Counted from the stretch's first letter, positions 43,488 through 51,984 are shown. The stretch: 64,000 nucleotides of DNA from Demequina mangrovi (GCF_000759715.1 NZ_BBLU01000005.1:1-64000); one strand, 5' to 3'. The notes: a model not told the origin generated them from the letters alone. Numbers and translations: made by a program.

Positions 43488-43793
43488 ATGCCCTCCGGTC
43501 GTCGCTCCTCCAAGCGCCCGTACGGCCGGCCCCATGAGGAGCTCGACGTCGGTCGGGTGTGGGGCAACCGCGCCCGCATCGAGCGCGGGCCCCGCGGCGA
43601 GGACTTCTACGTCGCGACCCCGCGGCCGACCGATCGCACCTTCGTGTGCCCGGGCTGCCAGGGCGAGATCTCGGGCGAGCTGCCGCACGTGGTGGCGTGG
43701 CCGGTCGAGAGCATCATGGGCGCCGAGGCGGCCGCGGACTCGCGCCGCCACTGGCACACGGGCTGCTGGCAGAGCTTCGGGCGCGCACGCTGA
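43488..43793 (+). CDS. Small conserved actinobacterial protein with CxxC
   Basis: 101 residues, basic start. FVCPGCQGEI and RRHWHTGCWQSF give two Cys and two His that could bind zinc, in an HNH-like or zinc-ribbon layout. Homologues are often labelled 'ATP/GTP-binding protein' without experimental basis; I see no nucleotide-binding motif. A nucleic-acid-binding role is a guess. Leaderless start. Followed after 10 nt by an alpha/beta hydrolase. Confidence 0.8.
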   Translation: MPSGRRSSKRPYGRPHEELDVGRVWGNRARIERGPRGEDFYVATPRPTDRTFVCPGCQGEISGELPHVVAWPVESIMGAEAAADSRRHWHTGCWQSFGRAR

Positions 43794-45437: not shown

Positions 45438-45479
45438 GCGGGGGCACCTCACCACGAGGGGGGCGTGAGGTGCCCCCGC
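45438..45479. terminator. Bidirectional terminator
   Basis: A perfect 15-bp stem (arms 45438-45452 and 45465-45479, starting GCGGGGGCACCTCAC) with a 12-nt loop lies between two convergent genes. No T-tract on either side. Between the hydrolase stop and this stem lies an unusually AT-rich stretch (about 45370-45395). Confidence 0.8.
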
Positions 45480-45526
45480 CATCATGGCCGTGGGATCAGG
45501 GACGATGCTCGCGCGGGGCGCGCGGC

Positions 45527-45937
45527 TCAGCCCCAGGAATCGCCGCCGGCGAGCCGCTTGCGGAGCGCCTCGTCGAGGGGCAGCGACTCGCCGTCGCGGG
45601 CGCCGCGCCCGAGCTCGAGCGGCGGGTCCGCCGGGGAGAGGTGGGCGCCGCGCAGGCGCTCGCGCAGCCCTCCCGGCGTCGACAGCACGTAGAAGCTCCC
45701 GTCGGTCCCGACCCCGACGGACCGGTCCCGCTTGAGGTACCAGCCGGTCACCGAGGTCCGCACGCGCGAGCGCCCGTCGTAGGTCCGCGCCGTGAGGGTC
45801 TCCGGCGCGAGGCCGGCCGCGACCGCGTCGCTCACGAAGGCCTGGATCAGCGCCGAGGCGGCACGCGACTCCGCCTGACGCTGGCGCGCGAGCGCGTCCG
45901 CCATCTCGAGGCGGTCGTCGCGGGCGTCCACGGTCAC
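45527..45937 (-). CDS. Hypothetical protein overlapping the Scy-like gene
   Basis: 136 residues, no membrane segment. The first half looks helical (LEMADALARQRQAESRAASALIQAFVSDAVAAG) and the second contains a strand-rich stretch with TGWYLKRDRSVGVGTDGSFYVLSTPGG, a little like a small beta domain. No family recognised. The GTG start overlaps the stop of the coiled-coil gene by GTGA, so the two are co-translated in a fixed ratio and may interact. This pairing is its main clue to function. Confidence 0.75.
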   Translation of the reverse strand: MTVDARDDRLEMADALARQRQAESRAASALIQAFVSDAVAAGLAPETLTARTYDGRSRVRTSVTGWYLKRDRSVGVGTDGSFYVLSTPGGLRERLRGAHLSPADPPLELGRGARDGESLPLDEALRKRLAGGDSWG

Positions 45938-48912
45938 GCCTCCGAGGGCTCTGCCTTGGCGTCGTGCTCGGCCTGCAGACGCGACGCGCGGGCGAGGTTG
46001 CCCACGGGGTCGGACGAGAGCAGCCCGCGCAGGTCGTCGAGGTACGTGGTGATGGACTCGCGCTGACGGTTGAGCTCGTCGACCTCCCGCGTCGCCATGG
46101 TGCGCTCGCGCTCGGCGTCGCTCACGGCCTCCGAGATGATCGCCTCGGCGTGCTCGCGCGCCTCCGACACGATCTCGTCGGCGTTGTTGCGCGCGTTCGT
46201 GAGCAGGGTCTGCGAGTGGACCTCGGCCTCGCGGCGCACGGCCTCCGCGCGCTCGAGGGTCGCGCTGAGACGGTCCTCCGCCTCGGCGGTGCGGCGCTTC
46301 GCGTCGTCGACCATGGCGGCCGTCTCGGCGGTGGCCTCGTCGTGGCGCTGCGAGAGCTCGCGCTCGGCCTGCTCGCGCTTGGTGGCGACGTCGAGCTCGA
46401 GGTCCTCGCGGGTGCGGCGGGCCTCCTCGTGGGCGGCCTCGGCCTCCGCCTGGGCCTCGTCGCGCAGCTGCGCGGCCTCGGCCTGCGCGGACTGCACGAG
46501 GCGCTGCGCCTCGGCCTGCGCCGCGGCGAGGGCGTCCTTCGACTCGCGCTCCGTGGTGGCGCGGAGGTCGGAGGCCTGCTGCTGCGCGCTGCCCAGCGCC
46601 GCCTCGGCCTCGCGCGTGAGACGCGTGGCGTCCGCGTCCGCGGCGGAGCGGAGCTCGGCGAGCTCGGCGTTGACCGTCGCGCGGAGGTCCGCGGTCTCGG
46701 CGTCGGCGGCCTGACGCAGCTGCAGCGTCTCGGTGGTCGCGGCGGCGCGCAGCGCGCCGATCTCCTCGTCGGCGGCACGGCGCGCGTCCTTCGCGGCGCG
46801 ACGGACGTCCTTGGCGTGGGCCTCGGCGTTCGCGCGCAGGCTCTCGGCCTCGGCCTCGGCGCTCTGGCGGAGCTCGGCGAGCTCGGCCGCGACGGTGTCG
46901 CGCAGCTCCGTGACCTCCTCGTCGGCGGCCTCGCGCTCGCGGGTCGCGTACGCATCGGCGTCGCGGCGCTGCTGGGCGGCGTAGGCGTCGGCCTCGCGGC
47001 GCTGCTGGGCGGCGTAGGCGTCCGCGGCGCGGTGCTGCTCCGCGACGTAGGCCTCGGCGGCCTGGCGCTCCTTGGCGGCGTAGGCGTCCGCCGTGCGGCG
47101 CGCCTCGCCCGCGTAGGCCTCGGCCTCGCGACGCGTGTCGGTGTCGAAGGCCTCGGTCTCCTGGCGCTGAGCCGCGACCCAGGTCGCGACGGCGAGGCGC
47201 TCGGCCGCGAGCTCGTCGGTGGTGGCCTGGCGCAGGTCGACGTCCCACGTCTCGGTGTCGTGGCGCAGGTCCGCGGCCCAGGCCTCGGTGGCCTGGCGCA
47301 GGTCCATGTCCCAGGTCTCGGTCTCCTTGCGCAGGGCCGCGGCGAAGGACTCGGCCTCGTGGCGGACCGTGGCGGCGTAGGCCTCGGCGTCCTGGCGCAG
47401 CGCGGTGGCCGCGGTCTCGGCGTCCTTGCGGACCCCGGCGGCGTAGGACTCGGCGTCGCGGCGCTCCGCCGTCACGGCGGCCTCGGTCTCCTTGCGCAGG
47501 GCCGCGGCGAAGGACTCGGCGTCGCGGCGCTCCGCGGTGGTCTCGGCCTCGGTCTCCTGGCGCAGGTGCGCGACCCACGCCTCGGTCTCCTGGCGGAGCT
47601 CGGCGGCGTAGGCGGCCGCGCTGTCGCGCAGCTCGGTGGACTCGGTCTGGGCCGCGGTCCGCAGCTCGGCCGCCTCGCGGGCGGCCGCGGCACGCAGCTC
47701 GGCGGTGTCCTGGTCGGCCGCGTGGCGCAGCTGCGCGACCTCCTCCTGGGCCGCGTGGCGCAGCTCGGCCACGTAGGCGTCCGCCTCGCGGCGCTGGTGA
47801 CCGGTCTCACGCTCGGCGAGCGCACGCAGCTGAGCGGTCTCCTCGCCGGCGACCCGGCGCATCTCGGCGGCCGCAGCCTCGGCGGCCTCCCTGGCCTCCT
47901 GCGCCTCCTCCGCGGCGCGCGCGAGCGCGGCCTCGGCGTCGTTGCGCATGGTCGAGGCGTCGCTCTCGGCGGAGATGCGCATGTCCGAGGCCTCGGCCTC
48001 GGCCACGGCGCGCAGGTTCGCGGCCTCGCGCTCCGCCTCCGCGATCGAGTGGCCCGCGGCCTGCTCGGCGGCCTTGCGCGTCGCACCGGCCTCGTCCCTC
48101 GCCTCGGCGACGATGCGCGTGGCCTCGGCCTTGAGCGACTCGGTCTCGACGCGGGCGGCCTCGGTCAGCTCGTCGGCCTCCGTGTGGGAGGCGGCGAGGA
48201 ACGCGGCGGCCTCGTCGCGAAGGCGGCTCGACTCCTGGTGGGCGTGCGCGAGCTTCTGCTCGGCGTCGGCGCGCGCGGCGTCGACGAGGTCGGCGGCCTC
48301 GCGCTGGCTGGTGACGCGCAGCTCGGTGGTCTCGCGCTCGACGGTGGCGCGGACGGTGTGCGCCTCGCGCTCGCCTGCCGCGCGGACCTCGGCGGCCTCG
48401 GTCTCGGCGGCGGAGCGGATGCGGTCGGCCTCGCGCTGGGCGCGGTCGACGGCCTCGCCCGACTGGCGCTCCGCGGCCTCGCGGACGCCCGCGGCGAGGT
48501 GCTCGGCCTGCGTCTTGATCTCATCGGCCTCGCGGCGGCTCTGGGCGAGGATCTCCGCGACCTCGTTGTCGGCGCGGGCGCGCAGCTGCTGCGCGGCGAC
48601 GTTCGCACGGGCGACCGTGTCCTGCGCGTGGGTGTTGGCCCGCGCGATCACGTCGGAGGACTGCTCCTCGGCCGAACGCAGGAGCTGCTCGACGCGCGCG
48701 CCGAGCCCCTTGTACGTCGGCTGCTCGGACTCGCGGAGGGCCTTCTGGGCCTCGTCGAGGGAGCCGCGCGCCTGCTGAGCCTCGCGTCGTGCCTGCTCCG
48801 CGGCTGCAGCCTGCTCGCGCGCCGCGTCCTCCAGGCGTGCGATGTGGGCGGCGACCGCCTCCCGGTCGTAGCCGCGCATCGCAAGCGGGAACGGCAGGTT
48901 CTCTTCGGCCAT
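45934..48912 (-). CDS. Scy/FilP-like giant coiled-coil protein with DivIVA-like start
   Basis: 992 residues, almost all helical. The start PFPLAMRGYDREAVAAHIARLED resembles the membrane-targeting N-terminus of DivIVA and of Streptomyces Scy. From about residue 90 to the C-terminus the protein follows an 11-residue (hendecad) rhythm with charged Glu/Arg pairs; in the middle (about 440-690) the third position of each unit is aromatic, as in ETWDVDLRQAT and DAYAAQQRREA. Scy and FilP form scaffolds that organise polar growth in streptomycetes; in a non-branching relative a similar scaffold at pole or septum is likely. ATG at 48912 with GAGGAGAG upstream. Often mislabelled 'cellulose-binding protein'. 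Confidence 0.85.
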   Translation of the reverse strand: MAEENLPFPLAMRGYDREAVAAHIARLEDAAREQAAAAEQARREAQQARGSLDEAQKALRESEQPTYKGLGARVEQLLRSAEEQSSDVIARANTHAQDTVARANVAAQQLRARADNEVAEILAQSRREADEIKTQAEHLAAGVREAAERQSGEAVDRAQREADRIRSAAETEAAEVRAAGEREAHTVRATVERETTELRVTSQREAADLVDAARADAEQKLAHAHQESSRLRDEAAAFLAASHTEADELTEAARVETESLKAEATRIVAEARDEAGATRKAAEQAAGHSIAEAEREAANLRAVAEAEASDMRISAESDASTMRNDAEAALARAAEEAQEAREAAEAAAAEMRRVAGEETAQLRALAERETGHQRREADAYVAELRHAAQEEVAQLRHAADQDTAELRAAAAREAAELRTAAQTESTELRDSAAAYAAELRQETEAWVAHLRQETEAETTAERRDAESFAAALRKETEAAVTAERRDAESYAAGVRKDAETAATALRQDAEAYAATVRHEAESFAAALRKETETWDMDLRQATEAWAADLRHDTETWDVDLRQATTDELAAERLAVATWVAAQRQETEAFDTDTRREAEAYAGEARRTADAYAAKERQAAEAYVAEQHRAADAYAAQQRREADAYAAQQRRDADAYATREREAADEEVTELRDTVAAELAELRQSAEAEAESLRANAEAHAKDVRRAAKDARRAADEEIGALRAAATTETLQLRQAADAETADLRATVNAELAELRSAADADATRLTREAEAALGSAQQQASDLRATTERESKDALAAAQAEAQRLVQSAQAEAAQLRDEAQAEAEAAHEEARRTREDLELDVATKREQAERELSQRHDEATAETAAMVDDAKRRTAEAEDRLSATLERAEAVRREAEVHSQTLLTNARNNADEIVSEAREHAEAIISEAVSDAERERTMATREVDELNRQRESITTYLDDLRGLLSSDPVGNLARASRLQAEHDAKAEPSEA
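46955..47053. repeat. 33-bp tandem repeat inside the coiled-coil gene
   Basis: Three head-to-tail 33-bp units; the first two differ at one base. Each encodes one 11-residue hendecad of the coil. It reflects unit duplication in the coding sequence and is not a CRISPR or satellite. Confidence 0.85.
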
Positions 48913-49059: not shown

Positions 49060-50097
49060 GTGACTTTGCGCACCACCGCGCTGATCGCGGGCGCGCTCGG
49101 GCTGCTCCTCCTCATCGGCGGACTGATCGCCGATGCGATGCGCCCGGCGGCCTTCGGCACCCCTTCCGCCTCGCTTGAGACCCCCGTCCTGGTCATCGAC
49201 CCGGACATGGTCGCGATGGCACCGGGAGGCACCATCACCATCGAGGGATCCGGCACCATCACCGCCTACTCCGGCCGCGTCGACGACGCCGACGAGTGGG
49301 CCGCGTCGCGCGACGTCACCACGCTCACCGGCGTGCCGACGTGGGAGGAGCTGTCGACGGAGACCCAGACGGCGCCCGCCCCCTCGACCGAGCCGAGCGC
49401 GGAGCCCTCCGCATCGGCCTCCGCCTCGACGTCGGCCTCGGAGTCGTCCTCGCCCTCGGCCTCGGCCGAGGCGTCGGCCTCCCCGTCCGCATCCGCGAGC
49501 CCCGCGGCGCAGCAGGAGATCGCCGACATCTGGCGCGACTCGTGGAGCGCCGACGCCGGCACGCTCGAGCTGGAGAACGACGCGCTGCCCGTGGGCCTCG
49601 CGATCGTCGTCGAGTCCGAGGACGGCTCACCGCTGTCCTCGGTGACGATGCGGATCGACCGCGTGGTGAACGACGGCTGGGTCACGCCCCTCAAGTGGTG
49701 GGGCGCGTTCCTCGCCGCGGTCGGGCTCGTGGCGCTGATCTTCGTGTTCATCGATCACCGCGGCGCGGGCTCCAAGGTCGAGACGGCCGTCGCGAGCCGC
49801 CGTCAGGCGCCGCCGGCCACCCCCGGCGGCAGGCGCGAGCGCCGCGAGGCGCTCACCGCGGGTGAGGGCATCCCGGTGGTGGCGTCCGACGACGAGGAGG
49901 ACTCCGAGCAGGGGGCCCCCGAGCACGAGGCCCCCGAGCAGGACTCCGACGAGGCGTCCGAGGAGCCGTTCGAGCCCACGTGGGAGCCGGTCGGGACCGA
50001 GGCCGAGCCCGACAGCGAGCCCGAGGTTCGCGTGGACGGCGCGACGGAGGACGATGCCCCCGTGGGGGACGACGACGAGCGGGAGGATCGCGCATGA
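49060..50097 (+). CDS. Membrane protein with low-complexity outer loop
   Basis: 345 residues, two membrane helices (about 6-25 and 205-226). Between them lies an outside region with a Ser/Ala/Pro-rich block (about 108-150) that looks like a flexible stalk. The cytoplasmic C-terminus (about 230-345) is strongly acidic and disordered. No family found. GTG at 49060 after GGAGACACAC. Its stop overlaps the start of a lipoprotein gene, so the two probably form a unit at the cell surface. Divergent from the Scy-like gene. Confidence 0.8.
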   Translation: MTLRTTALIAGALGLLLLIGGLIADAMRPAAFGTPSASLETPVLVIDPDMVAMAPGGTITIEGSGTITAYSGRVDDADEWAASRDVTTLTGVPTWEELSTETQTAPAPSTEPSAEPSASASASTSASESSSPSASAEASASPSASASPAAQQEIADIWRDSWSADAGTLELENDALPVGLAIVVESEDGSPLSSVTMRIDRVVNDGWVTPLKWWGAFLAAVGLVALIFVFIDHRGAGSKVETAVASRRQAPPATPGGRRERREALTAGEGIPVVASDDEEDSEQGAPEHEAPEQDSDEASEEPFEPTWEPVGTEAEPDSEPEVRVDGATEDDAPVGDDDEREDRA

Positions 50098-51102: not shown

Positions 51103-51984
51103 ATGACTGACATCCCCGGCGCCATGCGCGGCGCCGTCGATCTGGCGGCGCTCGCGGCGCAGTCCCGTCGCGCGGACACCGGCCTCGCGACCATCGACGA
51201 GGAGGCGTTCCAGGAGCTCGCGCAGCAGTCGATGCAGCGCCCCGTGGTGATCGCGTTCGTCTCGAGCGCCTCGCCGCAGAGCGAGGAGCTCGCCCGCACG
51301 GTCGAGGAGGCCGCCGCCGCGCTCGGCGTGACGGCCGCCGCCTGCGACGTCGACGCGCAGCCCGCGATCGCGCAGGCCTTCCAGATCCGCGGCGTGCCCG
51401 CGGCGGTCGCGATCATCGGCGGCCGCCCCGCGCCGCTGTTCCAGGGTGCCGCGACCCGCGAGCAGATCGACGAGGTGCTCGGCCAGGTGGTCGCCGCCGC
51501 CCGTCAGATGGGCGCGGCGGAGGGGCTGACCGAGGGATCGGCCGCCCCCGCGCCCGAGCCCGAGCCGCCGCTCCCGCCGCTCCACCAGGAGGCGTACGAC
51601 GCGATCGAGCGGGGCGACCTCGAGGCCGCCGAGGCGGCGTACGACCGCGCCCTCCGCGAGAACCCCAAGGACGCCGATGCCCGCGCCGGCCGCTCCCAGG
51701 TGCGCCTCATGGCGCGCTCGCGGACCGCGGACCTGGGAGCGGTGCGCAAGGCCGCGGCGGACGCGCCGGACGACGTCGACGCGCAGCTCGCGGTGGCCGA
51801 CATGGACGTGCTGGGCGGGCAGCTGGACGATGCGTTCGGACGCCTGGTCGACCTGGTCCGCGTCACGGTCGGCGACGACCGCGAGAAGGCCCGTGCGCGC
51901 CTGCTCGAGCTCTTCGACGTGGTCGACGCCGCGGATCCGCGGGTGCTCCGCGCCCGCCAGGCGCTCGCCTCCGCGCTCTACTGA
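51103..51984 (+). CDS. CnoX/YbbN-like thioredoxin-fold co-chaperone without CxxC
   Basis: 293 residues. A thioredoxin-like domain (about 30-135) followed by tetratricopeptide-type repeats (about 160-293, HQEAYDAIERGDLEAAEAAYDRALRENPKDADA). The active-site position reads SSASPQSEEL, so the CxxC pair is absent and the protein cannot do disulfide exchange. This matches CnoX/YbbN proteins, which hold unfolded proteins and deliver them to GroEL. ATG with AGAGGAGA upstream. Confidence 0.88.
   Translation: MTDIPGAMRGAVDLAALAAQSRRADTGLATIDEEAFQELAQQSMQRPVVIAFVSSASPQSEELARTVEEAAAALGVTAAACDVDAQPAIAQAFQIRGVPAAVAIIGGRPAPLFQGAATREQIDEVLGQVVAAARQMGAAEGLTEGSAAPAPEPEPPLPPLHQEAYDAIERGDLEAAEAAYDRALRENPKDADARAGRSQVRLMARSRTADLGAVRKAAADAPDDVDAQLAVADMDVLGGQLDDAFGRLVDLVRVTVGDDREKARARLLELFDVVDAADPRVLRARQALASALY

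Follow-up and report, generated by a model that had tools for sequence, protein, structure and literature searches.

A predicted FilP orthologue of increased length in Demequina mangrovi and the conserved small protein encoded directly downstream

The stretch of DNA analysed here (the window) comprises 64,000 nucleotides from Demequina mangrovi (GCF_000759715.1, NZ_BBLU01000005.1:1-64000). Its minus strand carries a gene for a coiled-coil protein of 992 residues (45934..48912), with an ATG start and GAGGAGAG upstream, followed by a gene for a protein of 136 residues if translated from its first GTG (45527..45937). On the strength of blastp matches to Streptomyces FilP and of a common gene block, the coil is assigned as the Demequina orthologue of FilP, a known intermediate-filament-like protein of bacteria, and would be a scaffold of the Scy/FilP/DivIVA group. 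We regard it as probable that the coil is a lengthened FilP, and that the small protein has a cytoplasmic role of its own, stands under filP expression and is not an obligate part of the filament.

Assignment of the coil to the FilP family

A preliminary description of the locus had called the coil Scy-like, an identity that did not survive comparison with the two families. In blastp searches, residues 8-148 of the coil aligned with Streptomyces FilP with an E-value of 1e-10 and residues 788-965 with an E-value of 7e-14. The two ends of the coil thus align with the ends of FilP, and the extra length sits in the middle. The C-terminal FilP-like segment (residues 788-965, 46018..46551, minus strand) ends in NRQRESITTYLDDLRGLL. 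Close to the N-terminus, residues 64-88 (48649..48723, minus strand) form the FilP-family signature QPTYKGLGARVEQLLRSAEEQSSDV, which is recognisable up to Streptomyces FilP (EPSYAGLGARVEKILRLAEEE). Residues 13-20 (48853..48876, minus strand) read RGYDREAV, to be compared with the DivIVA-like motif RGYDxxEVD (PMC9858780). The protein therefore has both the motif and the coil, with the last part of the motif diverged from EVD to AVA. The DivIVA-like start in the preliminary description was correct at the level of this motif, but the match to the Pfam DivIVA model (PF05103) was weak (E 0.007, 16.7 bits) and below the cut-off of 28. A Pfam apolipoprotein match on the coil was attributed to coil composition.

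The Scy model (NF041483, an NCBIfam equivalog) scored 19.6 bits on the coil (E 1.4e-4), against a cut-off of 1040. Of 148 sampled genomes of the class, 10 contained a protein scoring above this cut-off; they belong to a single genus out of 82, which we took to be Streptomyces. The N-terminal profile of the Demequinaceae coils matched the 311-residue gene product encoded directly after Streptomyces scy, taken as FilP (E 4e-13), as well as the product of the corresponding gene in two further Streptomyces genomes. Scy itself, in a Streptomyces genome with scy, was not matched by this profile at E 0.01. It is therefore highly improbable that the coil is a Scy orthologue. Its hendecad richness, its similar length (992 versus about 1300 residues) and the weak match to the Scy model would agree with such an identity, but the score is a small part of the required one, the N-terminal profile and both aligned ends point to FilP, and Scy has been described as Streptomyces-only and as a paralogue of FilP (PMC9858780).

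Gene order pointed in the same direction. Counterparts of the window's ATP synthase, NucS, the gene at 43488 and the thioredoxin-domain gene at 51103 surround Streptomyces filP, and several genes located in the window's first half have counterparts farther out; the names of the genes in this block rest on sequence resemblance. As the DivIVA model scored below its cut-off and the libraries used contain no FilP model, the orthology rests on the two ends of the protein and on gene order. The D. mangrovi genome encodes one FilP-type coil, and no Scy gene was found immediately beside filP. The immediate neighbours of the coil gene in the window are the small gene and a divergent membrane-protein-like gene. 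DivIVA is encoded once in the genome, by a separate gene (G000:C28:92167) whose product scores above the Pfam cut-off. At 992 residues, the coil is far from the approximately 300 residues of Streptomyces FilP, but members of the FilP/Scy group range from under 200 to over 1000 residues and length does not define the family (PMC9858780). An epimerase-like and thiolase-like gene context has been reported for Scy and some FilP genes (PMC9858780), in agreement with our observation that some other FilP loci in the order adjoin an epimerase-like and a thiolase-like gene.

The likeness to FilP/AbpS (the SCO5396 family of actinobacterial rod-domain proteins; PMC2680258) thus extends to the N-terminal RGYD and P-[ST]-Y-x-GLGxR[VI]E signature, the C-terminal segment, the common gene block and hendecads with an Ala-rich core. 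The coil differs from FilP/AbpS in having 992 rather than 311 residues, with about 600 extra hendecad residues in the middle, in its aromatic stripe, and in a locus with a small gene downstream and no scy alongside. With Scy it has in common great length, richness in hendecads and a DivIVA-like motif at the start, but it has residues before RGYD, which are reportedly absent in Scy (PMC9858780), and its aromatic residues are in one phase, whereas those of Streptomyces Scy are only scattered. With DivIVA/Wag31 it has the DivIVA-like domain motif in common, but falls below the cut-off and is encoded apart from DivIVA.

Scy and FilP had been introduced as proteins studied in filamentous streptomycetes, and the window as coming from a unicellular relative. 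The second statement was right: the source is a Demequina, and the cells of D. capsici are short rods measuring 0.4-0.5 by 1.1-1.4 micrometres (PMC11233565). The first holds for streptomycetes but not exclusively, because FilP-family proteins of Janibacter and M. bovis, as well as that of S. coelicolor, assemble into filaments in vitro (PMC2680258) and FilP occurs widely among simple actinobacteria (PMC4255298). It has been known since 2008 that unicellular actinobacteria also possess FilP. What is new is the range of coil lengths in the Demequinaceae (approximately 440-1180 residues) and the acquired aromatic stripe.

Hendecad repeat, aromatic stripe and coil length

The 11-residue periodicity claimed for the coil was clearly borne out. 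Residue identity at lag 11 was 0.31 for the whole coil and 0.42 for residues 440-690, whereas shuffled versions of both stretches reached maxima of 0.17-0.23 at any lag; identity at lag 7 was at background level. The repeat unit can be written as [ED]-A-[YWF]-A-A-E-L-R-x-x-[AT], and 33-bp tandem units are visible in the DNA of the coil gene. Residues 378-664 (46921..47781, minus strand) contain 27 units, 18 of them with an aromatic residue at position 3. The run of aromatic residues at this position, described for residues 440-690, was likewise confirmed, since all 17 aromatics in residues 430-700 (located between 435 and 655) fall on one position modulo 11. In a helical-wheel calculation, the core is centred close to Leu (position 7) and Ala/Thr (position 11), with the aromatic position displaced by about 45 degrees to one side. 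Most likely, the aromatic stripe would pack at the margin of the core or between rods that associate side by side.

The stripe was found in nearly all Demequina coils, often with 17 to 33 aromatics in one phase. It is missing from the hendecad coils of D. oxidasica, D. aurantiaca and Demequinaceae Ww84, which are equally long, and it is weak in the Cellulomonadaceae coils examined, suggesting that the expansion is commonly accompanied by the stripe but does not require it. Within the Demequinaceae, coil length varies from 442 (HGW-Actinobacteria-4) and 455 residues to 1181 residues (D. pelophila), while the ends are constant. The middle of FilP has probably been lengthened by repeated amplification of 11-residue units, nearly to the length of Scy. 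Cellulomonadaceae coils have Pro/Gly-rich tails at the end. In the records of D. sediminis and D. litorisediminis, the coil frame is in pieces, which may reflect either frameshift errors in GC-rich repeats or real disruption.

Junction of the two genes and likely end of the transcript

The sequence at the junction of the coil gene and the small gene is GGAGGCGTGACCGTGGAC. The first GTG of the small gene overlaps the stop codon of the coil gene by 4 bases (GTGA), as had been noted in the preliminary description. A second GTG (45931, yielding 134 residues) follows 6 nt past the first, and a GGAGG ribosome-binding site (45939..45943, minus strand), located inside the end of the coil gene, precedes it at a distance of 7 nt. 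In D. iriomotensis, D. gelatinilytica and D. subtropica, the second GTG is the only close start of the small gene. This conservation of the second GTG, together with the position of the GGAGG, suggests that the genes may not overlap but be separated by 2 nt, so that the GTGA is literally present but possibly not the junction used. In D. sediminis, the two genes overlap by ATGA. The arrangement in the window is therefore either a 4-nt overlap or a 2-nt spacing, depending on the choice of start, and is tight either way.

Just 3' of the small gene, between convergent genes, lies a strong hairpin of about 15 bp without a T run (45438..45480, minus strand); the convergent gene beyond it encodes a hydrolase. 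A consensus scan for sigma-70 promoters and for terminators with a required T run gave no promoter or terminator match at the locus. The hairpin is a likely end of a two-gene transcript; in this genome, filP and the small gene probably share an mRNA, with coupled translation. On the other side of the coil gene, the divergent membrane-protein-like gene (49060-50097, plus strand) is followed by a lipoprotein-like gene from about 50094 (plus strand, in a stretch to 51077). The lipoprotein-like gene is a member of a group conserved at this position in many linked loci.

A conserved small protein family

The small protein had been described as unknown, and this assessment was upheld. The family has about 136 residues, which comprise a long helix and a small alpha/beta domain with conserved GWY and GxG[AG]RDGES motifs. 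Invariant positions in 49 members include F34, T61, GWY (65-67), Y83, G110, G112 and RDGES (114-118; RDGES/RDGDS-type). An AlphaFold model based on 49 sequences (pLDDT 89.8, pTM 0.79) predicts a 38-residue N-terminal helix (residues 3-40), four strands, a short helix and a C-terminal helix.

No NCBIfam family was matched by any of the 49 members, and the Pfam search gave one weak match in one member (DUF2849, E 0.005). For the small protein itself, Pfam, NCBIfam, PADLOC, PHROGs and the PDB, the last searched by both sequence and fold, yielded no match above threshold, and a Foldseek search of the model against the PDB and a viral library returned nothing at E 0.001. We dismissed as chance the Foldseek matches at E 0.16 and above (TM-scores up to about 0.4), the GSDH and DUF7232 matches (E 0.1-0.2), the PDB sequence matches (E 0.37 and above) and the PHROG matches (E 0.11 and above). 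As judged by these searches, the small protein represents an undescribed, conserved actinobacterial family without a Pfam or NCBIfam model or a PDB fold match.

Distribution and linkage of the pair

The small protein was found in 40 of 41 Demequina genomes, 45 of 47 Demequinaceae genomes, 118 of 248 genomes of the order and 37 of 297 genomes of the class; the profile search located the coil N-terminus in 167 of the 248 order genomes. Nearly every Demequinaceae genome has both genes. In 58 of the 118 genomes that gave the strongest coil matches (out of the 167 coil-positive ones), the small gene lay downstream of the coil gene, on the same strand and within 6 kb. Linkage was found in the Demequinaceae (19/19), family f53 (18/18), the Cellulomonadaceae (f9, 12/18), f48 (8/18) and f52 (1/1). 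In f54, f55, f57, f58 and f5, the small gene was apart from the coil gene or not found. Conservation of the pair, suggested earlier as a check, is thus essentially universal in the Demequinaceae and extends to the Cellulomonadaceae and parts of three other families, but linkage was shown for only 58 of the 167 coil-positive genomes of the order.

Linked genera with names include Cellulomonas, Cellulosimicrobium, Oerskovia, Sanguibacter, Actinotalea, Timonella, Paraoerskovia and Pengzhenrongella. In the named genomes, the coil gene preceded the small gene at all Demequinaceae and Cellulomonadaceae loci with enough upstream DNA, the broken frames of D. sediminis and D. litorisediminis being set aside. 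It did not do so in Actinoplanes, Catellatospora, Micromonospora, Jiangella, Phytoactinopolyspora and a Nocardioidaceae MAG. Gaps in the Cellulomonadaceae ranged from -4 to 37 nt, with one outlier due to a start-choice error and some other values also affected by start choice, and 4-nt overlaps (ATGA or GTGA) were present in several separate genera. The linkage has been kept while the proteins diverged to about 50% identity.

On a weakly resolved tree of the small protein (133 columns), the linked state required 3 changes, compared with 22 in shuffles. Tree and distribution fit a single origin of the linkage with occasional loss, for example in the f9 genus g16, in which the small gene lies away from filP. 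A MAG labelled Cellulomonas has a small protein that groups with the Demequinaceae on this tree, and its label may be wrong. A record titled Sphaerisporangium cinnabarinum ATCC 31213 closely resembles Cellulosimicrobium funkei in its coil and junction and is probably mislabelled.

The small protein did not occur only with FilP. All 17 f8 genomes that carry it (99-100% complete) lacked a FilP detectable with a broad profile, which does find FilP in f4, f50 and Streptomyces. Conversely, the small protein was not found in ten Streptomyces genomes, in a search that had no positive control, although closely related profiles readily find the family elsewhere. In 8 of 18 linked f53 genomes and 3 of 8 linked f48 genomes (11 in total), an opposite-strand GNAT acetyltransferase-like gene separates the coil gene from the small gene, so that the pair cannot form a simple operon in these genomes. 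Where the gap was about 600 nt, no tRNA was found in it, but often the GNAT-like gene instead.

These results bear on the proposal that the small protein is a dedicated partner of FilP, such as a cap, an adaptor or a regulator of assembly, in a ratio fixed by one transcript. The tight linkage in the Demequinaceae and Cellulomonadaceae can indeed be read as a real functional pair: pairing is near-universal in the former and found in most of the latter, 4-nt overlaps or short gaps occur in many genera, the linkage survives considerable divergence, and the long N-terminal helix of the small protein could join a coil. Nevertheless, the f8 genomes without detectable FilP, the Streptomyces genomes with FilP that yielded no small protein, the separation of the genes in g16 and the intervening GNAT-like gene weaken the proposal, and even for the linked clade we consider it unlikely. 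More doubtful still is that in the Demequinaceae and Cellulomonadaceae the small protein was recruited as a stoichiometric FilP partner binding a new long, straight, aromatic-edged hendecad filament in short rods. The evidence supports co-expression of the pair in one clade, but not a dedicated filament cap.

The flanking block of a thioredoxin-domain gene, a lipoprotein gene and an alpha/beta hydrolase gene is itself conserved in the same linked genomes, which makes neighbourhood inertia a serious alternative. The small gene would then have lost its own promoter as the intergenic DNA, including the GNAT-like gene, shrank, and the two proteins would have no process in common. That the GNAT-like gene lies between the pair in two different families suggests that at some stage the pair was not arranged as an operon. 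Moreover, the contexts of the small gene outside the linked clade are unrelated and its neighbours there have no function in common; named from sequence resemblance, they include rpsF/ssb-like genes in Jiangella and RecO/UppS-like genes in one family. On the other side, coupling by 4-nt overlaps in several separate genera is more than drift alone need give. We consider inertia possible, but would not favour it. In f8, the small gene is part of a conserved cluster, in which a YgfZ-like and a fatty-acid-binding-protein-like gene precede it on the same strand; this arrangement may hint at its function.

Discussion

In the reading that we prefer, a lengthened FilP beside a small protein with a role of its own, the coil would dimerise through its N-terminal DivIVA-like domain and form a nearly straight hendecad rod, which would then assemble into intermediate-filament-like structures, both by analogy with studied FilP proteins. 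By the same analogy, it may work with the cell's single DivIVA to stiffen or organise the short rod. The family of the small protein, broadly distributed and independent of FilP, would have come to lie beside filP in the ancestor of a single clade. Its cytoplasmic function would thereby have been brought under filP expression, and it may serve the same envelope or growth process.

The main part of the finding is a lengthened member of a known family, and for the small protein both linkage in one clade and independence elsewhere are documented. The analysis puts on the map a conserved actinobacterial family without a Pfam or NCBIfam model or a PDB fold match. Binding of FilP by the small protein, if it occurs, would give FilP a partner not included in the DivIVA/Scy set of the cited papers. 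FilP appears to have reached Scy-like length separately in small unicellular rods, by amplification of repeats with an aromatic pattern, and the Demequinaceae coils (442-1181 residues within one family) may serve as a natural length series for the effects of rod length in intermediate-filament-like proteins.
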